Of a stretch of 32,107 nt of DNA, positions 6,358 to 31,387 are shown piece after piece. The DNA lies in contig DXAM01000044.1 of NCBI GenBank assembly GCA_019117025.1, forward strand, positions 1-32,107, in the 5' to 3' direction. Positions within the stretch are counted from its first letter, which is position 1. Each line of letters opens with the position of its first letter. The position numbers and the translations under genes are program-made. The stretch is from Candidatus Microbacterium stercoravium. GTDB taxonomy: Bacteria; Actinomycetota; Actinomycetes; Actinomycetales; Microbacteriaceae. A model generated the notes under the pieces. That model was not told where the DNA came from and did no database searches. It saw nothing but the letters and a program-made list of their open reading frames with translations.

Positions 6358-6363
6358 TCCGCG

Positions 6364-6387
6364 TGAGGGCGGCGAGAGCCGCCCTCA
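6364..6387 (+). terminator. Intercistronic hairpin after the SBP gene (possible attenuator or 3'-stabiliser)
   Basis: TGAGGGCGGC-GAGA-GCCGCCCTCA: perfect 10-bp stem with a GNRA-type tetraloop, 7 nt after the stop codon. Confidence 0.65.
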
Positions 6388-6409
6388 TCGCCGGGAGGAG
6401 ATTTTCCGG

Positions 6410-7303: not shown

Positions 7304-8208
7304 ACACCACGCAGTCCACCAGGATGCTGACGACATCCGGATCGCGCCGCCAGCGCTTGCGCGTGCCGCGCCGCCGCTCGGTCAACCGCTTCCGACGCCT
7401 GCCGCTCTGGATCGCGGTCACGGTGCTGCTCATCGTGGTCGGCTACCCGCTCATCTGGCTCCTGCTGGGGTCGTTCAAGTCGCAGCGGGAGTTCCTCGAG
7501 GAGCCGACCTGGGCGCTCCCGCAGCAGTGGAGCTTCGAGAACTACGCCACGGCGTGGGACACCGCGGGGCTCGGCTCGGCGCTGTTCAACAGCACCATCA
7601 CCGTCGTACCCGCGCTGTTCTGCATGCTGCTGTTCGGCACGGCCGCGGCGTTCGCGCTCGAGGTGCTCGTGTGGAAGGGCCGCGGCGCCGTGCTGATGAT
7701 CTTCCTCGCGGGCATCATGGTCCCCGCGCAGATGATCCTGCTGCCGCTGTTCAGCGCCTATTTCCAGACGGGTCTCACGGGCTCGCTGTGGCCGCTGTTC
7801 CTGACATATACGGCAACCGGCATGCCTCTCACCGTCTTCCTGATGGCGACATACTTCCGTGCAATCCCGCGCGAGGTGTTCGAAGCGGCGACGCTCGACG
7901 GGGCATCGATCTACCGGCAGTTCTTCTCGGTCGCGGTGCCGATGATGAAGAACGGCCTGTTCACCGTCGGCCTCGTGCAGTTCTTCTTCTTCTGGAACGA
8001 CCTGCTCATCTCGCTCACGTTCGCGAACTCGAGCAAGCTCCGCACGCTCCAGGTCGCGCTCCTGAACTTCAACGGCAACTTCGGCACGACGCAGTACGGT
8101 CCGCTCTTCGCGGCCGTCAGCATCAACGTATTCGCGCTGCTCATCATCTATCTCCTGCTCAACCAGAGCATTCAGAAGGGCTTGACGGCCGGCGCCGTCA
8201 AGGGATGA
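7300..8208 (+). CDS. ABC sugar transporter permease (MalG-like)
   Basis: PREVFEAATLDGASIYRQFFSVAVPMMKNGLFTVGLVQFFFFWND signature. ATGA overlap with the upstream permease. Confidence 0.92.
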   Translation: MNTTQSTRMLTTSGSRRQRLRVPRRRSVNRFRRLPLWIAVTVLLIVVGYPLIWLLLGSFKSQREFLEEPTWALPQQWSFENYATAWDTAGLGSALFNSTITVVPALFCMLLFGTAAAFALEVLVWKGRGAVLMIFLAGIMVPAQMILLPLFSAYFQTGLTGSLWPLFLTYTATGMPLTVFLMATYFRAIPREVFEAATLDGASIYRQFFSVAVPMMKNGLFTVGLVQFFFFWNDLLISLTFANSSKLRTLQVALLNFNGNFGTTQYGPLFAAVSINVFALLIIYLLLNQSIQKGLTAGAVKG

Positions 8209-10864: not shown

Positions 10865-10921
10865 TTGCTCATGCATCCCGATGATGTAAAGTCTCGCGAC
10901 GGCGCGTGAATCGTTTCAAAC
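10865..10921 (+). promoter_or_regulatory. Promoter with LacI-type operator for the MFS gene
   Basis: Candidate -35 TTGCTC (10865-10870), 16-bp spacer, -10 TAAAGT (10887-10892). GTGAATCGTTTCAAAC (10906-10921) matches the TGAAnCGnTTCA pattern of the 4985/5007 operators. Confidence 0.6.
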
Positions 10922-10962
10922 GCGCCCATAACTTCAACGAGGAAACAGGCAGGCAAGAGCAA

Positions 10963-12243
10963 ATGGTGCGCATCGGTGCGAAGAAGACGACGGGCTGGAA
11001 GGCCACGATCGCCGTCGCGATGTCCAACTACATCGAAGCCGGATCCATCATCGCGATTTCGACGTCGATGATCTTCTGGCAGCAGGCGTTCGGGTTCGAC
11101 AACGCCTTCGAGGGGCTGCTCGCGGCCCTCAGTGCGAACGCGTTCGGCGCCGCGATCGGCGCGATCATCGGCGGGCCCCTCAGCGACCGGTTCGGCCGCA
11201 AGTTCATCTACACCTACGACCTGATCCTCTACATGGTCGGCGTGCTCATCGCGGCCTTCGCCGTGAACCAGTGGATGCTGCTCGTGGCGTTCATCCTCAC
11301 GGGCATCGCCGTCGGTGCGGGAGTTCCCGCTGCGTGGACGTACATCGCCGAGGAAGCGCCGAGCGAACGGCGCGCAGCCCACGTCGGCATGGCGCAGCTC
11401 GCCTGGTCGGTCGGCCCGGCCATCGGCTTCCTGCTCGCCGCCTTCCTCGCGCCGGCGGGCCTTGTCGGCGCGCGCATCATCTTCCTGCACCTGTTCGTGA
11501 TCGCCTTCGTCACCTGGTGGGTGCGTCGCGGCCTCGAAGAGTCGAAGAACTGGACGGACACGAAGGCGCTCCGCACGAAGCAGGGCGCGAAGGCTGCGGC
11601 CGGTCGCGGCTTCAAGGCGCTGCTCGGCCGCAAGCAGAACCTGCTCGCGATCGCGTTCCTCATCGGCGTCTACGCCTTCTGGAACACGGTGGCCGGACAG
11701 GCCGGCATGTTCATGCCGAACGTCTATCGCGCCTCGGGCCTCACCGACTCGGCGCAGCAGTACTTCCTGCAGGCGTTCCTCTGGACGATGACGGTCGTGG
11801 GCACGGGCGTGTTCATGTGGCTCGGCGACCGCATGTCGCGGCGCCTGCTGTTCTTCATCGGCGCCGTGCTCGGCATCGCCGGCTGGGTCGTTCTCGTGTA
11901 CCTGCCGGACGGGCCGCTGCCGCTGTGGGGCTTCGCGATCCTCTGGGGCTTCGCCTCGGGCATCGGCGCGCAGGCTTTCTACGGCCTCTGGACCGCGGAG
12001 CTGTTCGCGACGCAGTACCGCGCCTCGGCCCAGGGACTGCTGTTCTTCGCCGCCCGCATCATGGTCGGTGTGCTGAGCTTCGGGTTCCCGGTCTGGCTCG
12101 ACGTGCTGGGCCTGCCGACGCTCGGCGCGATCCTCATCGGGATCCTCGCGGTCTCGCTGCTCGTCGGCACGATCTGGGCGCCGAACACGCAGGGCAAGAC
12201 CCTCGAGCAGATCGAGCGCGAGCGCTACGGCGCAGACGCCTGA
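10963..12243 (+). CDS. MFS sugar transporter
   Basis: MVRIGAKKTTGWKATIAVAMSNYIEAGSII..., GGPLSDRFGRKFIYTYDL, WLGDRMSRRLLF and C-terminal APNTQGKTLEQIERERYG. Start set at the ATG; the upstream in-frame GTG lies in the operator. Confidence 0.9.
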   Translation: MVRIGAKKTTGWKATIAVAMSNYIEAGSIIAISTSMIFWQQAFGFDNAFEGLLAALSANAFGAAIGAIIGGPLSDRFGRKFIYTYDLILYMVGVLIAAFAVNQWMLLVAFILTGIAVGAGVPAAWTYIAEEAPSERRAAHVGMAQLAWSVGPAIGFLLAAFLAPAGLVGARIIFLHLFVIAFVTWWVRRGLEESKNWTDTKALRTKQGAKAAAGRGFKALLGRKQNLLAIAFLIGVYAFWNTVAGQAGMFMPNVYRASGLTDSAQQYFLQAFLWTMTVVGTGVFMWLGDRMSRRLLFFIGAVLGIAGWVVLVYLPDGPLPLWGFAILWGFASGIGAQAFYGLWTAELFATQYRASAQGLLFFAARIMVGVLSFGFPVWLDVLGLPTLGAILIGILAVSLLVGTIWAPNTQGKTLEQIERERYGADA

Positions 12244-15047
12244 TCGTCGCCGACCGCGGGCCGCGGCCGCGTCGCCGCCTCGAGCAGTTCGAGGATGTGG
12301 CCGTACTGCTGGCCCGTGGCCCGCGTCATTCCGAGTTCGCAGGTGCGGTTGCACGACGCGTGGGCGTCGGCGTTGAGCTCGCGCACCTCGGCCGCCTCGG
12401 CGGCGGTCGCCGAGGCGGTCAGCTCGGGGTGCAGCATGCCGCGGTCTCCGGCGAAGCCGCAGCATCCCCAGGCGTCCGGCACGACCGCTCGCCGCGCGAC
12501 GGCGGATCCGAGGCGCTCGAGCGCGGGGTTCAGCCCGAGCTGCATCGACGAGCACGTCGGGTGCAGGGCGAGGGTGTCGACGACGGCGCGCGGGTGCAGT
12601 CGAGGCAGCAGCACGCGGTCGGCGAACGCGACGGCGTCTTCGACCTGCGCGTGGAAGCCCGCATCGGCGAACATCTTCACGAACCCCTCGGTGCAGCTGG
12701 AGGCGTCCGAGACGATCGTGATCGCCCCGTCCGACGTCGCCCGCCGGGCGATGCGCGTGACGCGCTCGAGCATCGTGTCGCGGCCGCTCGTCATGCCCTT
12801 CGACGTCCACGGGGTACTGCAGCAGACCGCGTCGATCCCCTCGGGGATCACGAGCTGCACGCCCGCGCGCTCCGCCAGCGCGGCAAGGGCGCGGGCGACG
12901 CCGACGCCATCGTCCGCGGGGCCGAACATCGTATTGACGCAGGCGGGGATGTACACGGCGGCGACCTCGCCGGACCCGAGTGAGCTGCCGAGCTTCTTCC
13001 GCGCGGATCCGCCGCCCGGCAGATCCGCGGAGTACGCCGGGACGGCGTCGTCGCCGAGGACGCCCCGCGCGAGTGCGGTGGCGCCGGCCACGAGCGGTGC
13101 GGGAACGAACCGGGCGGCGGTGAGCGCGGCGGATGCGGCGCGCGTTCCCGCACCCCACGCCTTCGCCGCCGCGTTCCAGCCGGCGTCGGCCGCCTTTCCG
13201 GTGCGCTCTCCCCGCAGCCGCTTGACGAGGGATCCGGTGTCGATCAGCACCGGGCACGCCGTCTGGCACATGCCGTCGACCGCGCATGTGTCGAGCCCCG
13301 AGTAGTCGTAGTCGCGCTCGAGCTCGCGCACGAGCTCGAGGTCGCCGTCGGCACGCGCGCGCTCGATCGCGCGCCGCGTGACGATGCGCTGGCGGGGCGT
13401 GAGCGTGAGGTCCTTGCTGGGGCACACCGGCTCGCAGTACCCGCACTCGACGCAGCGGTCGGCCTCCTCCTCGATCTCGACGGGCACCTTGATGTTCGTG
13501 AGGTGCGCGTTCTCGTCGTCGGCGATGATGACGCCCGGGTTGAGAATGCCGCGCGGGTCGACGAGGCGCTTGAGCGCGACCATCACCTCGTACAGCTCGT
13601 CGCCGTACTGGCGCCGGACGAACGGGGCCATGGCGCGTCCGGTGCCGTGCTCGGCCTTGAGATTGCCGCCGGCGCCCAGCACCAGGTCGACCATGTCGTC
13701 GGTGAACCCGGCGAGGCGGCCGATCTGATCGTCGGTCTCGAACCGGTCGGTCAGCATGAAGTGGATATTGCCGTCCTTCGCGTGCCCGAAGATCACGCTG
13801 TCGCGGTAGGCGTACTGCGCGAACAGCTCCTGCAGCGATGCGCATGTGTCGGCCAGGGCGCCCACCGGCACGACGATGTCCTCGAGCAGGGCCGTCGTGC
13901 CCTGCGGCCGGGCGCCGGCGACCGACGCGTACAGTCCCTTGCGCAGCTTCCATGCGCTCGCGCGCGCACGGGGATCCGCTGACGGCGCCGCGGGAGCGCG
14001 CAGGTTCTCGGCGGCGAGCGCCCGGGTGCCGGCATCGACGAGCGGCGCGAGCTGCTGTTCGTCGGCCGACTGGTATTCGAACAGGAGGGCGGCCTCGGTC
14101 GTCGGGTCGAAGCCGCGGATGGCCGCCGGGGCATCGGGCAGCGACTGCCCCACCCGGATGCTCGTGGAGTCCATGAGTTCGAGCGCGACCGCGCCCGTCT
14201 CGACGAGCGCGGGGAGGGCGCGCGCGGCCGCGTCGAGGTTCGGGAACAGGGCGAGGCCCGCGGCGGCGTGCGGGCGGATCGGCACCGTGCGGAAGGTCGC
14301 CTCGGCGACGAAGGCGAGTGTGCCCTCGCTGCCGATGATGAGGTGCGCGAGCAGGTCGGCCGGCGAGGTGTAGTCGACGAACGCATTGACGCCGTACCCC
14401 ATGGTGTTCTTCATGGCGAAGGCGCGGCGGATCCGCGACATCGAGTCGGCGTTCTCGGTCACGCGGCGGCGCAGCCGTTCGAGGCCCTGCACCAGCTCGG
14501 GCTCGGCGCGGCGCAGCTGCGCGTCGGCGTGCGGATCGGCGGTGTCGACGGTCGTTCCCGAGGGCAGCACGAACACGAGCGACTCGAGGGTCTCGTAGGT
14601 GTTCTCGGTCGTGCCGCACACCATGCCGCTGGAGTTGTTGTTCACGACGCCGCCGATCGTGCACGCCGCCTCGCTCGCCGGATCCGGACCGAGCCGGTAT
14701 CCGCGCCGCGCGAGCATCGCGTTGACCTGCCGCACGGTCGCGCCGGGCTGCACGCGCACGCGCGCACCGCCGTCGAGCACCGTGACGCGACGGAACCCGC
14801 GCCGCACGTCGACGAGCAGATCGTCGCCCGACGCCTGTCCCGACAGACTGGTGCCGCCGGAGCGGAAGGTGAGGGCGGATCCGGAATCCGTCGCCGCGCG
14901 CATCAGCTGCGCCACGTCGGCTGCGTCGTTCGCGATGCTCACCCCGCGCGGCGTGAGCAGATAGTGCGAGGCGTCGCTGGCGTTCGCGATACGGTCGATC
15001 GCGCGCGTCGAGACGGCCACCGTGCTGATCGACGTCGACCTGGGCAT
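12225..15047 (-). CDS. FAD-binding and Fe-S oxidoreductase, D-lactate dehydrogenase (Dld-II / GlcD-like) type
   Basis: FAD-PCMH region LTFRSGGTSLSGQASGDDLLVD; FGHAKDGNIHFML; 4Fe-4S motif CVECGYCEPVCP plus CAVDGMCQTACP; CCG-type WGCCGFAGDRG at the C-terminus. Confidence 0.88.
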   Translation of the reverse strand: MPRSTSISTVAVSTRAIDRIANASDASHYLLTPRGVSIANDAADVAQLMRAATDSGSALTFRSGGTSLSGQASGDDLLVDVRRGFRRVTVLDGGARVRVQPGATVRQVNAMLARRGYRLGPDPASEAACTIGGVVNNNSSGMVCGTTENTYETLESLVFVLPSGTTVDTADPHADAQLRRAEPELVQGLERLRRRVTENADSMSRIRRAFAMKNTMGYGVNAFVDYTSPADLLAHLIIGSEGTLAFVAEATFRTVPIRPHAAAGLALFPNLDAAARALPALVETGAVALELMDSTSIRVGQSLPDAPAAIRGFDPTTEAALLFEYQSADEQQLAPLVDAGTRALAAENLRAPAAPSADPRARASAWKLRKGLYASVAGARPQGTTALLEDIVVPVGALADTCASLQELFAQYAYRDSVIFGHAKDGNIHFMLTDRFETDDQIGRLAGFTDDMVDLVLGAGGNLKAEHGTGRAMAPFVRRQYGDELYEVMVALKRLVDPRGILNPGVIIADDENAHLTNIKVPVEIEEEADRCVECGYCEPVCPSKDLTLTPRQRIVTRRAIERARADGDLELVRELERDYDYSGLDTCAVDGMCQTACPVLIDTGSLVKRLRGERTGKAADAGWNAAAKAWGAGTRAASAALTAARFVPAPLVAGATALARGVLGDDAVPAYSADLPGGGSARKKLGSSLGSGEVAAVYIPACVNTMFGPADDGVGVARALAALAERAGVQLVIPEGIDAVCCSTPWTSKGMTSGRDTMLERVTRIARRATSDGAITIVSDASSCTEGFVKMFADAGFHAQVEDAVAFADRVLLPRLHPRAVVDTLALHPTCSSMQLGLNPALERLGSAVARRAVVPDAWGCCGFAGDRGMLHPELTASATAAEAAEVRELNADAHASCNRTCELGMTRATGQQYGHILELLEAATRPRPAVGDDQASAP

Positions 15048-15118: not shown

Positions 15119-21090
<5,972 letters not shown>

Positions 21091-21119
<29 letters not shown>

Positions 21120-21765
21120 GCATGGTGCGGAACTCTCCCGGAGTGCGGTGGAGATCCCAGATGCGGTCGGCGACATCGTCGATGCCGTTCTCGAGGCGCA
21201 GTTTCGGGATCGCGCCGGGAATCACGAGCTGGGCGACGCGGATGCCCTCGTCTGAGAGCGCTTCGTGCAGCATCTCGCCGTAGGCGCTCTCCGCGGGGAA
21301 CGCGACCGAGGTGCCGGAGAATCCGGCGCGCGACTTCACGGACGTCCCGCCGTTGATCAGGATGATGTTGCCGCGACCCGATTCGCGCATCGACGGAAGC
21401 ACGGCGCGCACAGAATGAATGAGCCCGAGCGCGGAGAACCGCAGCGCTTCGAGCGCCAACTCCGGGGTCAGTTCGAGCACGTTCTTGAGGTACGTCTTCG
21501 CGGGGAGCGGGCTGTACTGGAGGGTCGTGATGGGCCCGAGGTCGGACGCGGCACGTTCGAGCGCTGACTCGAGGGCGGCGCCATCCCGCACGTCGGCGGC
21601 GTATCCGTGCGCCGTCGCGCCCTCGTTCTGCAGCTGCCGGGCGAGGGCGTCGAGCTTCGTCTGATCGCGCGAGATGAGCGCGATCGAGTACCCCTCGCGA
21701 GCGAAACGACGGGAGACAGCGGCCCCGAGTCCGGGCCCGGCTCCGATGATCGCAATGGTGGGCAT
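21091..21765 (-). CDS. Atypical short-chain dehydrogenase/reductase-like protein
   Basis: N-terminal TIAIIGAGPGLGAAVSRRFAREGYSIALISRD Rossmann motif. The expected YxxxK is replaced (VAFPAESAYGEML). Confidence 0.8.
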
Positions 21766-21789
21766 TGTGCGTCTCCTTCTCGTCGACTC

Positions 21790-23106
21790 TCAGTTATCGC
21801 GCACGGCCTCGAAGAGGTCGTCGTCGCCGACCTGCCCGCCCTTGAGCAGCAGTTCCGCGCCATCGATGGCGGGGTCGGCGGCGTGCGCCGTCAGCAGCAC
21901 GACGTTATCCCAGGGGTTGGCGGCGATCGAGAGCGACGCGACACCGAGCTGTGTTGCGACGCGGCTCGACGTATCGCCGCCGCACACGATGATGCGCCGC
22001 GTGGCGCCGGCGCGGAGGGCGGCATCGACCGCCCGGGCGCACGCGGCGGAGATCGCCGGGAGCAGCTGGTCAGCCGGGAGCAGTGACGCATCGGCGTCGT
22101 CGGACGTCAGGACGACGCTTCGCCCCGCGCTGAGCGCCTCGAGCACGTCGTCGAGGTGCGCATCGGCTCCGAGCGACAGCGGGCGCACGAGCCACCCCGC
22201 CGCACGCGCCGCATCGGCCTGACGGCGCGTCTGCGCGGATCGGCTGCCCGATACCGCGAGCACAGGACCGGTCTCGTGCCCGCGCACGGGGATCGGATCC
22301 GCCTGACGCGGGTGCGCGATCGCGATCGCGTGGCTGAGGCCGCCGGATCCGATCGCGAATACGGTTCGTCCGAGAGAGGCGACGGCCTCGCCGATCACGC
22401 GCAGGTGATCGTCATCGAGCGCGTCGAGCACGACGCCGGCGGCGTCGGTCGACTGCAGGCGCTCCGCGAGCGACGCACCGGCGGAGACGCGCCCGACCGG
22501 TGAGGTCTCGTCGCCGTCCGCCGCGTGTCTGTGAGGTTCCGCCGGACTGTCGTAGGAGGTGAAGGGAATGCTGTCAATCGCGAGGTCGGTCTGCTCGCTG
22601 AGGTGCCGAGCGAGGTCTGATTCGCGCATCGGGGTCGACGGATGCTGCGACATCGTCGGCTGACGGTCGAGTCGGTAGACGGTGCCCTGCTCGGCCGCGA
22701 AGTGGTGGCCGAACGCCGTGTACCTGCCGAAATCGGGCTGCGCGAACAGGATCGGCGCGGGGCCCGGCACCCTGTCCCGCGCGATCTCGAGCACGCGGCC
22801 GATGCTGCCGATCTCGGGTGACGAGTCGGCCGTCGAGCAGGCCTTGTACTGCAGAACGTGCGGGGCGAGCGTGAGCAGCAGGTCGAACGCGGGCCCCACC
22901 TCATCGGCGATCTCGGCGGTCGCGAGCGATCTCGCGATGCCCGCAATGCCCACCGCATCATTCGTGCGAGCGGCATCGGCGAGCGCCTCGGGGGAGGGGC
23001 GTCCGACGAAGAGGCGGGCGCGCTGGCCGCGCCTCGCGAACTGCAGCAGCACGTCGACGCTTCCCGTGAAGTCATCGCCGTAGAACGCGACGCGCACGTC
23101 AGACAC
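21790..23106 (-). CDS. DUF1537-family (four-carbon acid sugar kinase / OiaK-like) kinase
   Basis: N-terminal YGDDFTGSVDVLLQF, YKACSTADSSPEIGSIGRVLE, C-terminal VCGGDTSSRVATQLGV and LLKGGQVGDDDLF. GTG start at 23106 gives an 8-bp overlap with the RLP gene. Confidence 0.88.
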   Translation of the reverse strand: MSDVRVAFYGDDFTGSVDVLLQFARRGQRARLFVGRPSPEALADAARTNDAVGIAGIARSLATAEIADEVGPAFDLLLTLAPHVLQYKACSTADSSPEIGSIGRVLEIARDRVPGPAPILFAQPDFGRYTAFGHHFAAEQGTVYRLDRQPTMSQHPSTPMRESDLARHLSEQTDLAIDSIPFTSYDSPAEPHRHAADGDETSPVGRVSAGASLAERLQSTDAAGVVLDALDDDHLRVIGEAVASLGRTVFAIGSGGLSHAIAIAHPRQADPIPVRGHETGPVLAVSGSRSAQTRRQADAARAAGWLVRPLSLGADAHLDDVLEALSAGRSVVLTSDDADASLLPADQLLPAISAACARAVDAALRAGATRRIIVCGGDTSSRVATQLGVASLSIAANPWDNVVLLTAHAADPAIDGAELLLKGGQVGDDDLFEAVRDN

Positions 23107-24355
23107 GAATGCTGCCGAACCTCTCTGCCGCGCGTCGGATGGCCGCGGACGATGCGAAGGCCTGTTCGGCCGTCTCACCGCGTTCGGCCGATGCCCACGC
23201 CTCCCGCATGCTGGCGACGCCGCCCGCAATGCCGTCGGGATGACCGTGGATGCCGCCTCCCGACAGCACGAGCATATCCGCGGTTCCCGTCGCGCGGAAC
23301 GTGGCGTGCGCGAGGCCCGCCCACTGGCCCGAGCTCAGCACGGGAACGGTGGGGGTGAGGCCGTGCAGCGGCGTTCGCACATCGGCGATCGCGTCGATCA
23401 CCTGCTCGTCCGACTCGTAGAACTTGTTGCTGATGCCGTTGGTGTGCAGATGGTCGGCGCCGGAGAGCCGCGCGAGCTTCTGCCACGCACGGAACGCGAT
23501 GCCCACCTGGTCGCTGCGCGCGATGGATCCGAGCATCGCGCGGTGCCCGTGGATCGGCACCTCCGCGTGGTTCCGCAGGAACTCCAGCCCCGACAGTCCC
23601 ACCATGTTGATGCAGGCCATGACGCAGGTGCCGCCGGCGGCGAGCACGAGGTCGTGGTTGCGCTCGAGGCGGTCGATGTCGTCGGTGATGTTGAAGGCAT
23701 ACATCGGCATCGTGCCGGTGCGGTCGGCATGTCGATGGAGCACGGGCATGATCGCCTTGACGCGCTCTTCGAGGGGAGAGTGAGGGCCGTTGCCCTGTAG
23801 CTCGTCGTCCTTGATGAAGTCGATGCCCGCCGCGGCGAGATCGGCGACGACCTCCGCCGTCTCCTGCGGCGTCAGGCCGATGCTGGGCTTGATGATGGTG
23901 CCGAGCATCGCCCCCTCGGTGCGCCCCGTGAGCCGGCGGGTGCCCTCGACGCCGAACGCGGGGCCGGCATACCGGTCGGCGAACTCACGAGGCAGATCGA
24001 GGTCGACCAGACGGATCGCGGCGAGCTCCTTGATCTCGAACAGGTTGCCGGCGACCGCCGCCAACAGATTGGGCAGCGACGGGCCGAAGTTGTCGAGCGG
24101 GAACTGCACGCGCACACGGGCCCGCTTGCGGTCGCGCGGGTCGCCGATGGTGCCCGGAAGCGGTGCGGATCCGCTCGGCGGAAGCTCTTCGATCTGCACG
24201 ACCTGTGCGGCGAAGCGCGCGCGGATGTCGTCGGACTCGCGCTCGACGCGCACGAAGGTGCCCGTCGACTGCTCGCCCGCGAGCACTTCCGCCGCCTGCT
24301 GCAGGGGCAGGGACGTCTCGATGATGTAGGTCGCGATGACCCGGCTGCTGCTCAT
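23099..24355 (-). CDS. RuBisCO large subunit-like protein (form IV RLP)
   Basis: GEQSTGTF, GTIIKPSIGLTPQETAEVV, GIDFIKDDELQGN, HGHRAML, DHLHTNGISNK, SGGGIHGHPDGIAGGVASMREA. These are RuBisCO-fold signatures with key substitutions. Confidence 0.93.
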   Translation of the reverse strand: MSSSRVIATYIIETSLPLQQAAEVLAGEQSTGTFVRVERESDDIRARFAAQVVQIEELPPSGSAPLPGTIGDPRDRKRARVRVQFPLDNFGPSLPNLLAAVAGNLFEIKELAAIRLVDLDLPREFADRYAGPAFGVEGTRRLTGRTEGAMLGTIIKPSIGLTPQETAEVVADLAAAGIDFIKDDELQGNGPHSPLEERVKAIMPVLHRHADRTGTMPMYAFNITDDIDRLERNHDLVLAAGGTCVMACINMVGLSGLEFLRNHAEVPIHGHRAMLGSIARSDQVGIAFRAWQKLARLSGADHLHTNGISNKFYESDEQVIDAIADVRTPLHGLTPTVPVLSSGQWAGLAHATFRATGTADMLVLSGGGIHGHPDGIAGGVASMREAWASAERGETAEQAFASSAAIRRAAERFGSIRV

Positions 24356-24363
24356 GCGCGCGA

Positions 24364-26346
24364 TCACCACACCACCGGAAGCCACACGGACATCTCGCCC
24401 GGCCCGCGGTTGCCCCATGCGAAGTAGGGCACGAGCCGCGCCGGAGCCGTGCTCACCGCGTCATCCTCCAGATCGTCGTAGAGCGCGTCGGAGTCGGCGA
24501 TCGGCAGCACCTGCAGCTCGCCCTCGAGCGCCGTCACGCGCGTGCCGGCGATCTCGGTCGGCACCGGCGACAGAGCGGATCCGCGGCGCCACGCCGCCTG
24601 TTCGAGCAGCACGCCGTCCGGCACATCGGCGCTCTCCAGGCAGTACACGACGGGGCCCCGCTGCACCGCGATCTGTCCGGTCAGCTCTTCGGCGAGCCGG
24701 TGTCCGCGCAGCACGCGGACCGGCATCGGCAGGTCGAGCACGATCTCGTCGCCGGCCCGCCACTCGCGCTGCACCCGCGTGTAGGTGCCGGGATCCGTGA
24801 CCGCGACGCCCTCGCCGTTGATCGTGAGAGAGGTGCCCGACGACCAGCCGGGGATCCGCAGGTTGAGGGGCAGGGATCCCGTCGCAGCGGTGACCGTGAA
24901 CGCGATGCGGCCGCTCCACGGATAGTCGCTCTCCTCGCGGAGCGCGAGGCTCGCGCCGTCGCGCGAGACGGAGATCTCGCTCCCCCCGTACTGGTTGACG
25001 AACAGGCCGTCCGCCCCGATGGACGCGGCGCGGGTGTGGAAGCTCGCGAGGGTCCGGGCGATGTTCGGCGGGCAGCAGAAGCACGTCATGTACTCCTGGC
25101 GCAGGCGCTCGTCCGACGGCGGCGGCGACGGCACGACCGGCTGGCCCGTGTCGCCGGGGCGGCGCAGCTCGAAGGGCAGTCGGCGCACCTGACGCAGCGC
25201 GTTGGTGTAAAAGTAGGCGTCGCCCGAGAGGCTGATGCTGGCGAGCAGGGCGTTGTACGCGATGCGCTCGATCACATCGGCGTACTGCGCATCGCCTGTG
25301 AGGGCGAGCATCCGCTCGCTCCAGAAGATCATTCCGATGTTCGCGCACGACTCGGCGTGCGCCGTCGTGTTCGGCAGCTGATAGGCGCGGCCGTACGCCT
25401 GGTGCACGCGGCTGATCTCGCCCTGCCACGGGTGGCCGTCGGGCGATGCGCCGTCGTACAGGGCGCCGCAGCCGCCGGTGAGATACATCTTCGTGTCGAC
25501 GACATCGGTCCACAGGCGCTCGAGAACGGCGCGCAGCTCGGTGTCGCCGGTCTCGAGCACGAGGTCGGCGAGGCCCGCGTAGAGGTAGTTCGCGCGCACG
25601 GCGTGGCCGGCGACCGCGTACTGATCGCGCACGGTGATGCGGTCCTGGTTGTCGTCGCCGCCCTCGTCGAAGTCGTCGCGCACCCGCAGGAAGGTCTGCG
25701 CGAGTTCGAGGTAGCGGCGGTCGCGCGTCAGTCGGAACAGCTCCATGACCGCCATGTAGTGCGACGGGCAGATCGCGCTGCGCGCGAGCTCGAGCGGCTT
25801 GTCGTTCGCCAGGTGCTCGAGGAATCGCGCGGCGTTCTTGCCGATCGCGAGCAGTGATTCGCTTCCGGTCACCTCGTAGTGGCGCACGCCGGCGCTGATC
25901 AGGTGGCCGAGGTTGTAGGTCTCGAAGTTGAAGCGGTCGGCGAGCGCCGTCACGGCATCGCCGTTGCGCTCGGCGATCGTCGTGGGCGTGTGCACGTAAC
26001 CGTCGTCGCGCTGCACCCGCGAGATCATCCCGGCGAGATGCTCGATCCGGGCGGCGAGCTCATCGTTCGGATCTGTCTCGAGGCTGTCGATCGCAGCCTC
26101 CATCCACTTGTACATGTCGCCGTCCATGAACGGAGGGCCGATGTGCTGCCCCTCGCGCTCGCCGAGGGCGATCTGGAAGTTGCGGAGCCCGGGGCTGATC
26201 TCGGGGTCGCTGAGGCTCGCCCAGATCTGCGGAATCGTCACGTCGCGCGTGCGTTCGTGGATGCGGCCCCAGAAGCCGTTCGACCATTGAGCTTCGGCGG
26301 CGCTGAGGTGCGTCATCGGGGCTCTTTCGCGGGGTGCCGCTGTCAT
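24364..26346 (-). CDS. GH127 family (DUF1680) glycoside hydrolase, beta-L-arabinofuranosidase-like, no signal peptide
   Basis: NGFWGRIHERTRDVTIPQIW, QRDDGYVHT, AESCANIGMIFWSERML, YMTCFCCPPNIARTLASFH. Glu/Cys/Cys-Cys residues consistent with the GH127 Zn-Cys site. Confidence 0.92.
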   Translation of the reverse strand: MTAAPRERAPMTHLSAAEAQWSNGFWGRIHERTRDVTIPQIWASLSDPEISPGLRNFQIALGEREGQHIGPPFMDGDMYKWMEAAIDSLETDPNDELAARIEHLAGMISRVQRDDGYVHTPTTIAERNGDAVTALADRFNFETYNLGHLISAGVRHYEVTGSESLLAIGKNAARFLEHLANDKPLELARSAICPSHYMAVMELFRLTRDRRYLELAQTFLRVRDDFDEGGDDNQDRITVRDQYAVAGHAVRANYLYAGLADLVLETGDTELRAVLERLWTDVVDTKMYLTGGCGALYDGASPDGHPWQGEISRVHQAYGRAYQLPNTTAHAESCANIGMIFWSERMLALTGDAQYADVIERIAYNALLASISLSGDAYFYTNALRQVRRLPFELRRPGDTGQPVVPSPPPSDERLRQEYMTCFCCPPNIARTLASFHTRAASIGADGLFVNQYGGSEISVSRDGASLALREESDYPWSGRIAFTVTAATGSLPLNLRIPGWSSGTSLTINGEGVAVTDPGTYTRVQREWRAGDEIVLDLPMPVRVLRGHRLAEELTGQIAVQRGPVVYCLESADVPDGVLLEQAAWRRGSALSPVPTEIAGTRVTALEGELQVLPIADSDALYDDLEDDAVSTAPARLVPYFAWGNRGPGEMSVWLPVVW

Positions 26347-26393
26347 GGGGATCCTTCCGGAGAACGTCGTGTAATGTCGATTGAGTCACAGTT

Positions 26394-26446
26394 TGGATAA
26401 AAATTCAACCCCGAGTGTTGACGCGAACACGAATCTTTCCTACTGT
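26394..26446 (+). promoter_or_regulatory. Promoter of the second ABC operon with candidate SorC-family operator
   Basis: TGGATAAAAATTCAACCC (26394-26411) matches 14/18 with a site upstream of the SorC gene. -35 TTGACG (26418-26423), 17-bp spacer, -10 TACTGT (26441-26446). Confidence 0.65.
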
Positions 26447-26482
26447 TCTCGCGTACCCCGCACCACGTCAAGGAGGACGCTC

Positions 26483-27805
26483 ATGACCATCCGCAACTCA
26501 CGCAGACGCCTGGTTCTCACAGGCCTATCATTCGTCGCTGTCGCAGCTCTCGCCGGTTGCTCCGGAGGATCGAGCGACCCGTCCGGCGGCGCCGATGGTT
26601 CGAGCGACGAGCCTGGCTCGTTCACGGTGCTCACCGCGAACGAGAACCAGGCGCTCGAGGATCAGCTCACCGCACTCGCCGAGGGGGCATGCTCGGAAGA
26701 GAACGAGGCGATGCCGCTCGAGCACCAGAAGACGGCGCAGGCCGACACGGTGCAGAAGGTCACGCAGCTCGCGAGCCAGGGAGCGCTGCCGCAGCACTTC
26801 ATCGCGGGCACCGACATGGTGCGGCCGGACGGCGACCTCGGCTCGGGCGGACTCGTCGCCGACTACGAAGAAGTGCTGGGCGATGCGTTCGACAACATCC
26901 TCCCCGCGGCTGCATCGACCGTGGAAAACGTCTACGGCGGCATGGTCTCGTTGCCGTACCAGTACAACCTCGAGGGCATTTGGTACAACAAGCAGATGTT
27001 CTCGGAGGCCGGGGTCGACGAGCCCCAGACCTTCCAGGAGCTGCTCGACGCCAGCGCGGCCCTCGAAGAGGCGGGTTATCAGCCCCTCACGACGGCGGGC
27101 GCTGACGGCTGGCCGATGACGCGGCTCATGGGCATGTACATCTTCCGCAACGTGGGCCCGGATGCGATGCAGAAGATCGCCGACGGTGAGGCGAAGCTCA
27201 CGGATCCCGAGTACCTCGCGGGCGCCGAAGCGCTCAAGCAGCTCGCCGACGAGGGTTACTTCGGCGACGGGTTCTCGACCATGGACTCGGGCACGTCGGC
27301 CGCGGCCTTCCTCACGGGCAAGGCGGCGATGAAGTACGACGGTTCGTGGCTGCTGAGCAACATCAATGACCCCGAGCAGAACGAGATCGGCGAAGAGAAC
27401 GTCGGCTTCATGCCCTTCCCCGCTGTCGAAGGCGGTGCCGGTGACATCAACCAGTGGGCCGCGAACGCCGGCGCCGCGATGTCGGCGAACGCCGAGACCA
27501 TGGGGCCGAACACGACGGCCTGGTTCGAGTGCATCGCAGAGAACTACGGCGCGCAGGCGCTCAACACGGCGGGCATCGTCTCCGGCTTCGCGATCAACGA
27601 TGAGGTGACGGACGTGCCTGCTGCGACCGCCGTCGTGCAGGAGAAGGTCGAGGGCATCGACGAGACGGTGCTCTGGTTCGAGGCATTGTTCGACGCCAAG
27701 TCGAACTCGCTCGCTTCGACGAACGCGAGCCTGCTCGTGACTGATCAGATGAGCGCCGAGGACTACATGGCCGAACTCCAGGCGAGCATCGAGGCGTCGC
27801 TCTAA
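26483..27805 (+). CDS. ABC transporter extracellular solute-binding lipoprotein (paralogue of 5062-6357)
   Basis: Lipobox ALAGCSGGSS; YNLEGIWYNKQMFSEAGVDEPQTFQEL; EENVGFMPFPAVEGGAGD. AAGGAGG Shine-Dalgarno. Confidence 0.92.
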   Translation: MTIRNSRRRLVLTGLSFVAVAALAGCSGGSSDPSGGADGSSDEPGSFTVLTANENQALEDQLTALAEGACSEENEAMPLEHQKTAQADTVQKVTQLASQGALPQHFIAGTDMVRPDGDLGSGGLVADYEEVLGDAFDNILPAAASTVENVYGGMVSLPYQYNLEGIWYNKQMFSEAGVDEPQTFQELLDASAALEEAGYQPLTTAGADGWPMTRLMGMYIFRNVGPDAMQKIADGEAKLTDPEYLAGAEALKQLADEGYFGDGFSTMDSGTSAAAFLTGKAAMKYDGSWLLSNINDPEQNEIGEENVGFMPFPAVEGGAGDINQWAANAGAAMSANAETMGPNTTAWFECIAENYGAQALNTAGIVSGFAINDEVTDVPAATAVVQEKVEGIDETVLWFEALFDAKSNSLASTNASLLVTDQMSAEDYMAELQASIEASL

Positions 27806-27816
27806 ACCCCCACATC

Positions 27817-27846
27817 GCCCGGCCCTCCGATCGAGGAGGGCCGGGC
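27817..27846 (+). terminator. Intercistronic hairpin after the SBP gene (possible attenuator or 3'-stabiliser)
   Basis: GCCCGGCCCTCC-GATCGA-GGAGGGCCGGGC: perfect 12-bp stem, 6-nt loop, 11 nt after the stop codon. Confidence 0.7.
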
Positions 27847-27868
27847 CACGACACGGAAGGTGCGGTAG

Positions 27869-28750
27869 ATGTCGCGTGTCTTCGGGGATCGCAAGACGGT
27901 CCTCATCCTGCTCGTGCCCGTGCTCGCGGTGTACGGCCTGCTCAAGGTCGTGCCGGTGCTCTGGTCGCTCGGCCTCTCGTTCTTCGAGGGAAACACGCTG
28001 CGCGGGTTCGAGTTCGTCGGCTTCGACAACTTCACGACCTTCTTCACCGATGGCCCCGCGCTCCATGCGCTGTGGGTGACGGTGTACTTCGCGGTCGTGA
28101 TGACGGCCGCTCAGGTGGTGATGGGATACCTGCTCGCCCTGATGTACGTGTTCGTGCTGCGCAAGGGCTCGGCGTTCCTCCGCACCGCGGTGTTCTTCCC
28201 GATGGTGCTGCCGACCGTCGCCGTGGCGATGCTGTTCAAGAGCTTCGTCGCCGTCGGCGACAACCAGGGCCCCGTCAACGATGTCATCAACCTCTTCGGC
28301 GGCGACAGCGTCGAGTTCCTTGCGACGACGTCGGGCACGATGACCGTCGCGATCCTGATGACGCTGTGGACCTCGATGGGCTTCTACGCGGTGCTGCTGT
28401 ACACGGGGCTGCTCGACATTCCCGACGAGGTCATCGAATCGGCGCGCATCGATGGCGCGAGCGGGCTGCGGCTCGTGCGTCACATCGTGCTGCCGCTGTC
28501 GGCGCCGATCCTGCTGTCGTCGATCATCTTCAGCTTCAACTCGACGCTCAAGGTGTTCGACAGCCTGCTCGCGCTGAACAACGGCGGACCCGGTACCTCG
28601 ACCTCGCCACTCACGCTGTACATGTATCGCACCGCTTTCGAGTACGCCGAGTACGGCTACGGCTCGACGATCGCTCTCGTGCTCACCCTGCTCTGCCTGG
28701 TGTTTACGGTGACCGTATTCCGGTCGTCGGCGAAGCGGACGGAGGACTGA
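27869..28750 (+). CDS. ABC sugar transporter permease (MalF-like)
   Basis: Multi-span protein. ESARIDGASGLRLVRHIVLPLSAPILLSSIIFSFNSTLKVFD signature. Confidence 0.92.
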   Translation: MSRVFGDRKTVLILLVPVLAVYGLLKVVPVLWSLGLSFFEGNTLRGFEFVGFDNFTTFFTDGPALHALWVTVYFAVVMTAAQVVMGYLLALMYVFVLRKGSAFLRTAVFFPMVLPTVAVAMLFKSFVAVGDNQGPVNDVINLFGGDSVEFLATTSGTMTVAILMTLWTSMGFYAVLLYTGLLDIPDEVIESARIDGASGLRLVRHIVLPLSAPILLSSIIFSFNSTLKVFDSLLALNNGGPGTSTSPLTLYMYRTAFEYAEYGYGSTIALVLTLLCLVFTVTVFRSSAKRTED

Positions 28751-28751
28751 G

Positions 28752-29657
28752 ATGAGCGCTACCCAGAACCTGATTCAGGCCGAGCCCGTCTCGCGCAAAC
28801 TCCCGCGTCGGGCGGCGTCGCGGCGCGCCAAGCGAATCCTGCGCCGGATCCCGGTGTGGCTGTCGGTGACCGTGCTGCTGGTCGTCGTGCTGTACCCGAT
28901 GCTGTGGATGATCCTCGGATCGTTCAAAACGCAGGGCGAGTTCTTCGCGAACCCGACCTGGGCGCTGCCGGAGAGCCTCAACTTCGCGAACTACATCGAG
29001 GCGTTCACGCGAGGCAACATCGCGCTCAACTACCGCAACAGCCTCATCGTGACGATCCCCTCGGTCGTGCTCATCATCTTCCTCGGCGTCGCCGCCGGAT
29101 ACGCGCTCGAAGTCATGGTCTGGAAGGGCCGCCGACCGACGCTGCTGCTCATCATGGCGGGCATCATGGTGCCCGGACAGATGATCCTCGTGCCGCTGTT
29201 CACCGCGTACTTCAAGATCGGCATCACCGACAGCCTGCTGCCGATGATCCTCACCTACACAGCGATGGGCATTCCTCTCACGACGTTCCTCATGGCCGCC
29301 TATTTCCGCTCCGTGCCGCGCGAGCTGTTCGAGGCGGCGACGATGGACGGGTCGAGCCCGCTCCGATCGTTCTTCGTGATCGGGATTCCGATGATGAAGA
29401 ACGCCATGCTGACGATCGGCCTCGTGCAGTTCTTCAGCGTGTTCAACGATCTGCTCATCGCACTGACGTTCACGACGAGGCCCGACCTCGCGACGATCCA
29501 GGTCGGTCTGCTGAGCCTGTCCGACCAGTACGGTGGGACCAACTACGGTGCGCTGTTCGCAGCCGTGAGCATCAACATCGTGGCGCTGCTGATCGTGTTC
29601 ATCTTCCTCAATAAGAAGATCATGGCGGGCATGGCCGCCGGATCCGTGAAGGGATAG
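28752..29657 (+). CDS. ABC sugar transporter permease (MalG-like)
   Basis: PRELFEAATMDGSSPLRSFFVIGIPMMKNAMLTIGLVQFFSVFNDLL signature. Confidence 0.92.
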   Translation: MSATQNLIQAEPVSRKLPRRAASRRAKRILRRIPVWLSVTVLLVVVLYPMLWMILGSFKTQGEFFANPTWALPESLNFANYIEAFTRGNIALNYRNSLIVTIPSVVLIIFLGVAAGYALEVMVWKGRRPTLLLIMAGIMVPGQMILVPLFTAYFKIGITDSLLPMILTYTAMGIPLTTFLMAAYFRSVPRELFEAATMDGSSPLRSFFVIGIPMMKNAMLTIGLVQFFSVFNDLLIALTFTTRPDLATIQVGLLSLSDQYGGTNYGALFAAVSINIVALLIVFIFLNKKIMAGMAAGSVKG

Positions 29658-30313
29658 TGCCGATGACGAAGATCGCGTTTCTGCATACCGGGGCCGTTGT
29701 GATCCCGCCGGTGATGGAGCTCGCCCGCGAGCTGCTGCCGGGGGCGACGCCCATCAACTACCTCGACGACCGCATCGTCGCCGACCTGCGCGACCCCGTG
29801 CTCGCCGAGTCGGTGCCGCAGCGGGTCGCGAACCTCGTCGAGAGCGCCAAGGCGGCCGGAGCCGATGCCGTGATGCTCACCTGCTCGTCGATCTCGCAGC
29901 TGGCCGCGCCCACAGCCGAGCGCGCCGGGATCGACGTGCTGCGGATCGATGAGGCGATGGCCGATGAGGCGGTCGCCGCGGGCGAGCGGATCGCCGTGGT
30001 CGCGACGCTGCCGACGACCTGTGAGCCGACGGCAGCGCTGATCCGCGAGCGCGCATCGCTCGCCGGAACGGATCCGCGGATCGAGGCCGTCGTGGTCGAC
30101 GGGGCGTTCGAGGCCGTGGCCGCGGGAGAGCGCGAGACCCACGATGCTCTCGTCGTCGCGGCGATCGAGCGGGCCGCCGAAGCGGTCGACGTCGTCGTGC
30201 TGGCGCAGGCCTCGATGGCGACCGCGGCCGAGAAGGCCGAGGTCGCTGTTCCCGTGCTCACGAGCCTGCGGCCCGGGATCACACGGCTCGCCGAGCGGTT
30301 CGCGCGCGGCTGA
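29657..30313 (+). CDS. Asp/Glu racemase-superfamily-like protein (function uncertain)
   Basis: ADAVMLTCSSISQLAAPTAERAGIDVLRIDEAMADEAV, IAVVATLPTTCEPTAALI, VDVVVLAQASMATAA. Starts at GTG 29657, overlapping the permease stop, or at ATG 29663. Confidence 0.7.
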   Translation: MPMTKIAFLHTGAVVIPPVMELARELLPGATPINYLDDRIVADLRDPVLAESVPQRVANLVESAKAAGADAVMLTCSSISQLAAPTAERAGIDVLRIDEAMADEAVAAGERIAVVATLPTTCEPTAALIRERASLAGTDPRIEAVVVDGAFEAVAAGERETHDALVVAAIERAAEAVDVVVLAQASMATAAEKAEVAVPVLTSLRPGITRLAERFARG

Positions 30314-30326
30314 CGCAGCGGTCCCG

Positions 30327-30357
30327 GTCAGAGGTGCTCGTCGCCGACGAGCACCTC
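30327..30357. terminator. Perfect hairpin at the convergent racemase-like/SorC junction (candidate bidirectional terminator)
   Basis: CAGAGGTGCTCGTCG-C-CGACGAGCACCTCTG: 15-nt arms (effective loop 3 nt or more). It overlaps the last codons and stop of the SorC-family gene. Confidence 0.7.
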
Positions 30358-31338
30358 TGCCGTGCGCACGTCGGTGATGAGCGTGGTGATCCATCCGCCC
30401 GCGAGAGCACCGCGGATCGCCGGGATCTTCCGGGGACCGCCGGCGAGGCCGACGCGGCGCGGGATGCGCATGATCGCCTCGGTCGGGATCGCGATGATGC
30501 GGTCGTCGAGGTCGCCCTCCACAAGAGATCCGTCGGCCCGGAAGATTCGGTGGCAGATGTCTCCTACGGCGCCGCTGTCGAGGAGCTGGCGGCGCTCTTC
30601 CGACGAGAACGCGTTGCCGCTCGACTCGAGCACGTCAGACGGCTCGATGCTGCCGATACCCATGATGGCGACCGAGAGCTCCTGCCAGTGGCGCGTGACC
30701 TCCTGCATCGAGACATCGCGCAGCAGGCTGTCGCGCATCGCGGTGTCGGCAACGATCCCCGGTGCCGACACGTAGACGGGATCCGCCCCGATCATCCGTG
30801 CCAGCTCGCCGAGGATGCGGTTCGAGTGGCTCTGTGCTTCTGGCGCCCCGAGGCCGCCGAGCAGCTGTATGACTTCCTTGGCGCCGCGCGGATTGAGCGG
30901 ACGCATGCGGTCGACCATCGCGAGGACCGTCTGGCTCCACGACGAGACGCCGACGCGATCGTTGCCCGAGAACGACGCCTCGAGGTAGCCGGCGGCGCCG
31001 GCGCCGATCGCTGCCAGCACGTCACCGTCGTCGGCATCGTCTTCGACATCGACGATCACGGCTTCTTTGAGGCCGAAACGCGCTTCGAGTTCGTCTTCGA
31101 GCTCGCCGTACACGCCCGGAGCGGAGCTCACGATCGTCCGGATGATGCCGGCCCTCTCCGCGCGCTTGAGCAAGCGGGAGACCTTCGCCTGCGAGATGCT
31201 CAGGGTGGCGGCGATCTCGGCCTGACGAATGCCGCGCTCGTGGTACATTCGCGCAATCTTCGTCATGAGGCGCGTCTGGCCGTCGGCCTGGGGAAACGAT
31301 GTCGGTGTCACGCGAGCTCCATTGTCCGAGGTCCGCAC
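30328..31338 (-). CDS. SorC-family (sugar-binding) transcriptional regulator
   Basis: HTH MTKIARMYHERGIRQAEIAATLSISQAKVSRLLKRAERAGIIR, then a sugar-binding domain (VGVSSWSQTVLAMVDRM, IIAIPTEAIMRIPRRVGLAGGPRKIPAIRGALAGGWITTLITDVRTAEVLV). Confidence 0.9.
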   Translation of the reverse strand: MRTSDNGARVTPTSFPQADGQTRLMTKIARMYHERGIRQAEIAATLSISQAKVSRLLKRAERAGIIRTIVSSAPGVYGELEDELEARFGLKEAVIVDVEDDADDGDVLAAIGAGAAGYLEASFSGNDRVGVSSWSQTVLAMVDRMRPLNPRGAKEVIQLLGGLGAPEAQSHSNRILGELARMIGADPVYVSAPGIVADTAMRDSLLRDVSMQEVTRHWQELSVAIMGIGSIEPSDVLESSGNAFSSEERRQLLDSGAVGDICHRIFRADGSLVEGDLDDRIIAIPTEAIMRIPRRVGLAGGPRKIPAIRGALAGGWITTLITDVRTAEVLVGDEHL

Positions 31339-31363
31339 CTGCGGCAGTGCGTGGGAAATCTCA

Positions 31364-31387
31364 GGGCAGAATCTTTATGCAGATTCT
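31364..31387 (-). promoter_or_regulatory. Candidate SorC-family autoregulatory operator
   Basis: Inverted repeat AGAATC-tttatgca-GATTCT (31368-31387). The reverse complement TGCATAAAGATTCTGCCC (31364-31381) matches the 26394 site at 14/18. Confidence 0.6.

Follow-up and report, generated by a model that had tools for sequence, protein, structure and literature searches.

A candidate locus for rhamnogalacturonan-II side chains in Candidatus Microbacterium stercoravium, combining a probable variant of the D-apionate pathway with a possible aceric acid route

Gene content of the locus

The window, a 32,107-nucleotide stretch of DNA from Candidatus Microbacterium stercoravium (contig DXAM01000044.1), encodes two ABC importers, several glycoside hydrolases and a leftward gene set around a RuBisCO-like protein. 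The host is a soil-type actinobacterium. The genes considered here are:

5098–8208, + strand: second ABC importer, with its own SBP and a pair of permeases (PF01547, PF00528), upstream of GH78
8232–10796, + strand: GH78 alpha-L-rhamnosidase (Pfam Bac_rhamnosid domains; NCBIfam rhamnosidase, 712 bits)
12225–15020, − strand: FAD/Fe-S oxidoreductase, GlcD/D-lactate dehydrogenase type (FAD_binding_4, FAD-oxidase_C, Fer4, CCG)
15119–16072, + strand: aldo-keto reductase (AKR; PF00248)
16069–19044, + strand: GH2 beta-galactosidase, LacZ type (Pfam GH2 domains; NCBIfam Bga2A, 670 bits)
19041–21119, + strand: GH42 beta-galactosidase-type enzyme (PF02449/PF08532)
21091–21765, − strand: atypical SDR (PF00106), probably accessory
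21790–23106, − strand: DUF1537 kinase, OiaK-like (PF07005/PF17042; start GTG at 23106)
23099–24355, − strand: RuBisCO-like protein (RLP), OiaX-like (PF00016/PF02788; start ATG at 24355)
24364–26316, − strand: GH127 resembling the aceric acid hydrolase BT1003 in type (Pfam GH127 catalytic, middle and C-terminal domains)
26483–27805, + strand: sugar-type solute-binding lipoprotein (SBP; PF01547; lipoprotein-like N-terminus; conserved in relatives)
27869–28750, + strand: ABC permease 1 (PF00528)
28752–29657, + strand: ABC permease 2 (PF00528; conserved in relatives)
29657–30313, + strand: Asp/Glu-racemase-fold protein (RACE; PF01177), one catalytic Cys
30328–31338, − strand: SorC/DeoR-type sugar-sensing regulator (PF04198; conserved in relatives)

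A Pfam profile search of the window proteins found every named gene with its expected domains. The gene positions given in an earlier sequence-only reading were correct, and so was the tight spacing it described (a GH127–RLP gap of 8 nt, an RLP–kinase overlap of 8 bp and a kinase–SDR gap of 24 nt). No signal peptide was seen in the GH127, GH2 or GH78 sequences.

The best PDB match of GH127 was 5mqo (BT1003; 603 bits), the next GH127 scoring 349 bits. Against the NCBIfam model AcerHdlse (NF049879) it reached 734.9 bits, below the equivalog cut-off of 950. The Zn ligand and nucleophile residues E322, C324, C414 and C415 are present in all 38 linked GH127s aligned. At the acid/base position, all 38 carry a glutamine (Gln306), as does BT1003, and a common extra loop precedes this residue in both GH127 and BT1003; the usual glutamate is retained in the GH127 structures 4qjy, 6ex6 and 3wre. 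BT1003 is described as an aceric acid hydrolase in two reports (PMC5698469, PMC10850190). The closest structure and the shared glutamine uphold the earlier suggestion of an aceric acid-type GH127, and the substrates of this enzyme are probably aceric acid glycosides.

The RLP keeps the carbamate lysine, the KDDE metal site and the loop-6 lysine, with the motifs TIIKPS (152), FIKDDE (179), HGHR (268), NKFY (309) and GGGIHGHP (365). Its best PDB sequence match was 3nwr (378 bits). In a comparison that covered the OiaX and MtnW models, it scored 416.2 bits against OiaX (NF042437), below the NCBIfam equivalog cut-off of 700; RLPs from related loci likewise fell under this value. The kinase scored 246.9 bits against OiaK (NF042436), again below an equivalog cut-off of 700. 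Judged by these profile scores, which support the earlier assignment, the RLP most resembles OiaX and the kinase OiaK, two enzymes of the D-apionate pathway, in both cases below equivalog level. Searches of the genome found a single RLP and a single DUF1537 kinase, both inside the window.

The predicted structure of RACE (AF2 pLDDT 96.8) appears nearest in fold to Asp/Glu racemase, allantoin racemase and arylmalonate decarboxylase, at 13–22% identity. Cys74 is invariant, and the second cysteine site reads AQ[AG]S in 48 of 48 sequences. We rejected a classical racemase because the second catalytic cysteine is replaced; the fold search gave the superfamily only. RACE accompanies the RLP and the kinase across phyla. 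The SDR had been counted among the core enzymes of the pathway, a role we dismiss: its YxxxK motif was not found, and no other related locus examined has a counterpart beside the RLP. It is probably accessory. For the FAD/Fe-S protein, the nearest PDB entries were glycolate oxidase and lactate dehydrogenases.

Conserved linkage and apionate genes

The GH127, RLP and kinase genes adjoin on the same strand, mostly overlapping or a few bases apart, in more than 30 actinobacterial loci, and their linkage is kept through three different gene orders. Among 250 sampled genomes of the same family, close GH127 and close RLP homologues (60–77%) are confined to the identical six genomes. This conservation and exact co-occurrence indicate that the association is not due to chance. 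All 35 GH127-linked RLPs fall into one clade of the RLP tree; in this clade, it is with GH127, and not with ApnO, that the kinase and RLP genes form an operon.

The conserved unit extends further than had been stated. It also takes in GH78 (28 loci), GH2 (25 RLP loci), the AKR (10 loci) and the FAD/Fe-S oxidoreductase, which accompanies the RLP in 22 loci and is present in 33 of 43 genomes. GH42 occurs in the wider loci, and homologues of 48–50% identity adjoin GH140 in two of them. Permease 1 is 72–86% identical in close relatives having the same transporter set, and a homologue of the second importer shares an operon with GH127, RLP and kinase in five loci (L062, L064, L071, L072 and L078). 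Loci L056 and L074 carry GH78, GH2, GH127 and a GH140-like gene all together.

Genes for the apionate steps had not been recognised in the earlier reading, which allowed for a different substrate. Homology searches of the same genome overturned this absence: ApnL, ApnO, LerI-like and DerI-like genes form one operon on contig C34, and a GH140-like apiosidase is encoded on contig C32, which completes the glycosidase set for a rhamnogalacturonan-II (RG-II) locus (GH78, GH2, GH127, GH140-like) across the window and C32. ApnO is 85% identical to the copy in genome G057 and has TIM-type, RpiB/DerI-type and Dak genes as neighbours. It was found in 30 of the 38 RLP-bearing genomes searched; in relatives where ApnO and GH127 share a contig, their median distance is 19 kb, with 23 of 26 cases within about 50 kb.

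One genome, G107 (98% complete), keeps GH127, RLP, kinase, RACE and the FAD/Fe-S protein, and a search of it returned no ApnO, ApnL or GH140 and no close LerI, only a 37%-identical TIM. It is the only clean genome having the module without apionate genes. Three other cases are less clean: the G271 assembly is fragmented and includes a LerI-like gene, that of G285 is a MAG, and in G279 GH127 lies on a separate contig.

Substrates of the kinase and the RuBisCO-like protein

RG-II occurs across vascular plants, and the microbes that feed on it must dispose of its aceric acid. The gene content makes it quite likely that the locus serves RG-II side chains, chain B being the most likely target. We read it as a variant D-apionate pathway within an RG-II side-chain locus, with a candidate aceric acid route. 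For the side-chain assignment, the GH127 type and the apionate parts taken jointly, leaving the aceric acid step aside, we put the probability at roughly 0.6. The kinase and RLP in this genome likely serve apionate; since they are its only DUF1537 kinase and only RLP, and apionate genes are present, D-apiose is their most likely source. A GH2 of B. thetaiotaomicron cleaves Gal-beta-1,2-aceric acid (PMC11739564), and the conserved GH2 of this locus speaks for the RG-II reading.

From the genes, their homology, conserved linkage, co-occurrence and active-site residues, we infer the following reactions. The ABC importers would take up an RG-II side-chain oligosaccharide for intracellular utilisation, in keeping with the import proposed earlier. 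Cytoplasmic GH78, GH42 and GH2 would remove rhamnose and galactose-type sugars, GH127 would release L-aceric acid, and the GH140-like enzyme would free D-apiose. D-apiose would be oxidised and its ring opened to D-apionate (ApnL), which ApnO would convert to 3-oxo-isoapionate. Phosphorylation by the DUF1537 kinase and decarboxylation by the RLP would then give L-erythrulose 1-phosphate, and two isomerases encoded with ApnO, one LerI-like and one DerI-like, would lead from there to erythrose 4-phosphate.

The ketose of L-aceric acid, HOCH2-CO-C(OH)(COOH)-CHOH-CH3, is 3-oxo-isoapionate plus one methyl group, which makes dual use of the pair chemically natural. Because the operon that holds the kinase and RLP genes is that of GH127 rather than that of ApnO, the two enzymes may well also handle this ketose, an unproven step to which we give somewhat less than even odds. 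Aceric acid would be isomerised, or reduced and re-oxidised, to the 2-ketose; the kinase would phosphorylate it, the RLP would decarboxylate the product to a 5-deoxypentulose 1-phosphate, and an aldolase would cut this into dihydroxyacetone phosphate and acetaldehyde. No clear aldose-ketose isomerase gene for aceric acid was found among the genes of the locus. We tentatively suggest that the GH127–RLP–kinase–RACE module is an L-aceric acid pathway whose kinase and RLP also serve D-apiose in most hosts. Both the GH127 active site and genome G107 lend weight to the aceric acid substrate raised in the earlier reading, but in this genome as an addition to apiose and not as its replacement. Our searches of an open-access library turned up neither a breakdown pathway for aceric acid nor, the apiose pathway apart, any RLP reported from a locus of this kind.

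A serious competitor, about as plausible as dual use, is that the kinase–RLP pair handles nothing but 3-oxo-isoapionate derived from D-apiose, aceric acid being exported or degraded by other genes; GH127 would share the operon because the same side chain needs both. The D-apionate gene set of this genome and most relatives fits this, as does OiaX as the nearest relative of the RLP, but the placement of the pair outside the ApnO operon and the G107 module argue against it. It is unlikely that the RLP is instead of OiaT type, a transcarboxylase/hydrolase yielding 3-phosphoglycerate and either glycolate (from apiose) or lactate (from aceric acid), with the FAD/Fe-S protein oxidising the 2-hydroxy acid formed. 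Such an RLP is known from Xanthobacter (PMC6302742), and the RLP-linked FAD/Fe-S protein is nearest glycolate oxidase and D-lactate dehydrogenases. However, the LerI-like and DerI-like genes beside ApnO match the decarboxylase product, and the C4 chirality of L-aceric acid, we reason, implies L-lactate and not D-lactate.

Still less probable is a GH127 with beta-L-arabinofuranosidase or other specificity (arabinan or extensin) whose RLP and kinase neighbours are coincidental. The family does include beta-L-arabinofuranosidases and 3,6-anhydro-D-galactosidases, as PMC5698469 and PMC10850190 state, yet the features shared with BT1003 and the exact co-occurrence with the RLP speak against it. MtnW of methionine salvage and tetronate catabolism, named earlier as outcomes that would count against the proposal, have only folds in common with the pair and were rejected as highly improbable on model scores (RLP: OiaX 416 bits, MtnW 154–192; kinase: OiaK 247, oxo-tetronate kinase 125, threonate kinase 55), and no mtn or otn genes were identified among the window proteins scanned.

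Comparison with known systems

On breakdown of RG-II side chains, a single kinase and a single RLP would probably receive the rare branched sugars, apiose and, less certainly, aceric acid. If the dual-use reading is true, one RuBisCO-like enzyme serves two branched sugars, and the range of reactions known for the RuBisCO superfamily grows. A further gene of the locus points to a companion of these RLPs across phyla that is, by its structural model, a racemase-fold enzyme.

The D-apionate pathway ApnL–ApnO–OiaK–OiaX was reportedly described by Carter et al. in 2018 (cited in PMC6302742). The likeness lies in the OiaK-like kinase and OiaX-like RLP, with ApnL, ApnO and the LerI- and DerI-like genes on another contig. 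Here, however, the kinase and RLP are divergent, below the equivalog cut-offs, and share an operon with an aceric acid-type GH127; RACE and the FAD/Fe-S oxidoreductase are extra. With the RG-II system of B. thetaiotaomicron (BT1003, BT_0993), the locus has in common a BT1003-type GH127 with the acid/base glutamine, a GH2 (here a candidate) and a GH78. In contrast to that system, the enzymes are apparently cytoplasmic, behind ABC importers, the host belongs to the Actinomycetota, and genes catabolising the released sugars lie in the same cluster. The RLP of 3nwr, the best sequence match, has no function stated in its PDB entry. RACE shares its fold and one catalytic cysteine position with the Asp/Glu racemase superfamily, arylmalonate decarboxylase included, but keeps the first cysteine only, the second site being the invariant AQ[AG]S.

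Gene content and linkage of the locus

The window is an entire contig of a 2.43 Mb assembly (158 contigs, 95% complete). All genes named in the sequence-only reading were confirmed there, with the same positions and domains, and its spacings were correct: GH127 lies 8 nt from the start of the RuBisCO-like protein (RLP) at 24355, RLP and kinase overlap by 8 bp, and the SDR follows 24 nt on. The observation of a gene cluster is sound.

446-1213, left end, gene of the CofE (F420-0:gamma-glutamyl ligase) family with no relation to the sugar locus
10906-12243, MFS transporter, convergent with the FAD/Fe-S gene, the reading frames overlapping by 19 bp
12225-15020 (-), FAD/Fe-S oxidoreductase
21091-21765 (-), SDR
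21790-23106 (-), DUF1537 kinase
23099-24355 (-), RLP
24364-26316 (-), GH127
29657-30313 (+), Asp/Glu-racemase-fold protein (RACE)

The conserved neighbourhood exceeds the gene set first described. Related loci repeatedly carry GH78, GH2, the FAD/Fe-S oxidoreductase, an aldo-keto reductase, the importer, RACE and the SorC regulator; a GH140-like gene and an 'EPI' gene of the extended-SDR type recur among them too. The SDR did not recur in any related locus examined, and conservation of the MFS transporter was not found in relatives.

Among 250 Microbacteriaceae genomes sampled, a close RLP (60-77%) and a close GH127 (E below 1e-150) occurred in the identical six genomes and in none other; three more genomes of the same genus lacked both. 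A collection-wide scan yielded 80 RLP loci, and in over 30 of these GH127, RLP and kinase are same-strand neighbours. Three gene orders were found: GH127-RLP-kinase, RACE-GH127-RLP-kinase and RLP-kinase-GH127-RACE. Every one of the 35 RLPs linked to GH127 fell, in the RLP tree, within a single actinobacterial clade of 43 rows (99/96); the RLPs adjacent to ApnO, from other phyla and from other Microbacteriaceae, lay outside it. The linkage label clustered far above shuffles, an effect to which near-copies add. The GH127-RLP association exceeds chance.

Five other Microbacteriaceae loci (L024-L028) pair a kinase with RLPs of separate clades, so RLP-kinase loci of at least two kinds exist in the family; three of the five carry ApnO, ApnL and a ribose-type importer within one cluster. 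L065, a contig recorded under Planococcus sp. APC 4015, bears an RLP, 79% identical, that nests within Microbacteriaceae in the tree; the contig is probably a contaminant or misassigned. A zinc alcohol dehydrogenase adjoins RLP and kinase in loci from Kribbella, Bacillota and one Microbacteriaceae (L086:9033-10001, L090:13344-14366, L028:8374-9426). No ApnO was seen near these three loci, whose composition suggests oxidation of a branched hydroxy acid without group migration. In four Kribbella loci (L082, L083, L086, L099), RLP-kinase adjoins GH140-like, GH28, GH78 and BNR-repeat proteins and large proteins without a Pfam match, and ApnO was not found genome-wide; judged by gene content, this is another, differently composed pectin side-chain locus.

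Kinase, RLP and the D-apionate genes

The top models were OiaK for the kinase (247 bits) and OiaX for the RLP (416 bits). Because both fell short of the curated cut-offs (700 each), the proteins are filed as OiaK-like and OiaX-like, not as OiaK and OiaX. The OiaX model is narrow, since RLPs of other sampled clades also miss its cut-off. Tetronate kinases and MtnW were rejected as identities, the OiaK and OiaX models scoring far higher; the grouping of the RLP with MtnW, which the sequence-only reading had held would count against it, was not what we found, OiaX lying well above the MtnW models.

That reading had recognised no genes for apionolactonase, apionate oxidoisomerase or a GH140 apiosidase; candidates for all three lie on two other contigs of the genome:

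C34, a single run: ApnL (truncated at the contig edge), classical SDR, ApnO homologue, xylose-isomerase-like TIM barrel, second triose-phosphate-isomerase-like gene (LerI-like), RpiB/DerI-like gene, Dak-type kinase
C32: GH140-like protein, EPI gene

ApnL was named through NCBIfam NF049900, with a score under the cut-off. The ApnO homologue, 85% identical to ApnO of another genome (G057), was named from its PF16896/KARI-like domains and from the neighbours it has in other clusters, namely ApnL, RLP and kinase; the NCBIfam search found no ApnO model match. In relatives, the ApnO and GH127 operons share a contig in 26 genomes (no more than about 50 kb apart in 23 of them; median distance 19 kb), and a close LerI-like gene follows ApnO occurrence in most genomes tested. 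Since the whole genome holds one RLP and one DUF1537 kinase alongside apionate genes, this pair most likely completes the D-apionate route to erythrose 4-phosphate. In our judgement, the locus would be a variant D-apionate pathway set within an RG-II (rhamnogalacturonan II) side-chain locus of Actinomycetota.

The module without ApnO, and RACE

About 36 genomes carry this type of GH127, and four of them (G107, G271, G279, G285) lack ApnO of this kind. Three are weak cases, because G271 is a fragmented genome that holds a LerI-like gene, the GH127 of G279 is on a separate contig, and G285 is a MAG. G107 (98% complete) retains FAD/Fe-S-RLP-kinase-GH127-RACE-SorC; its GH127 is also nearest 5mqo, with Gln at the acid/base position, and searches for ApnO, ApnL, GH140 and a close LerI found none. 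It is the one clean case of the module without apionate genes. In Leucobacter (G283, L091), MFS-RLP-kinase-RACE and FAD/Fe-S are present; neither this GH127 nor ApnO is.

All 48 RACE homologues keep Cys74 (TCSS), with AQ[AG]S at the second racemase cysteine site. The AlphaFold2 model is confident (pLDDT 96.8), and a fold search returned aspartate, glutamate and allantoin racemases and arylmalonate decarboxylase (13-22% identity). RACE is not specific to aceric acid, because single-cysteine racemase-fold proteins 34-46% identical to that of the window also adjoin OiaX-like RLPs and DUF1537 kinases, at times with ApnO, in Acidobacteria, Verrucomicrobia, Rhodoferax and Paenibacillus (L094, L102, L105, L110, L112, L115, L128, L129 and L132). 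Our guess for the role of RACE is proton transfer on a pathway intermediate.

Aceric acid and the GH127 active site

The same kinase and RLP may also process aceric acid, a reading with a real if unproven basis. By our own reasoning, L-aceric acid, OHC-CHOH-C(OH)(COOH)-CHOH-CH3, has a 2-ketose, HOCH2-CO-C(OH)(COOH)-CHOH-CH3, that would be the OiaK substrate with CH2OH replaced by CHOH-CH3. No gene stood out as the isomerase that would form this ketose. The 2-ketose 1-phosphate would be decarboxylated to 5-deoxypentulose 1-phosphate, which could then yield dihydroxyacetone phosphate and acetaldehyde. A comparable split has been proposed for 5-deoxyribulose 1-phosphate (PMC6302742).

In RG-II breakdown, BT1003, a GH127 of Bacteroides thetaiotaomicron, is reported to be the aceric acid hydrolase (PMC5698469, PMC10850190). 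The window GH127 had a single NCBIfam family match, the aceric acid hydrolase model; because it missed the equivalog cut-off (735 vs 950 bits), we label the protein BT1003-type and do not treat it as a proven aceric acid hydrolase. Its metal and nucleophile positions are, by alignment, E322, C324, C414 and C415. Its top solved relative is 5mqo, which we take to be BT1003 (603 bits; other GH127 structures at most 349). Gln stands at the acid/base position in 5mqo, the window GH127 and 38 of 38 cluster GH127s, against Glu, the acid/base of characterised beta-L-arabinofuranosidases such as HypBA1, in the 4qjy, 6ex6 and 3wre chains. The loop directly ahead of this residue is common to the window GH127 and 5mqo, whereas the arabinofuranosidases lack it.
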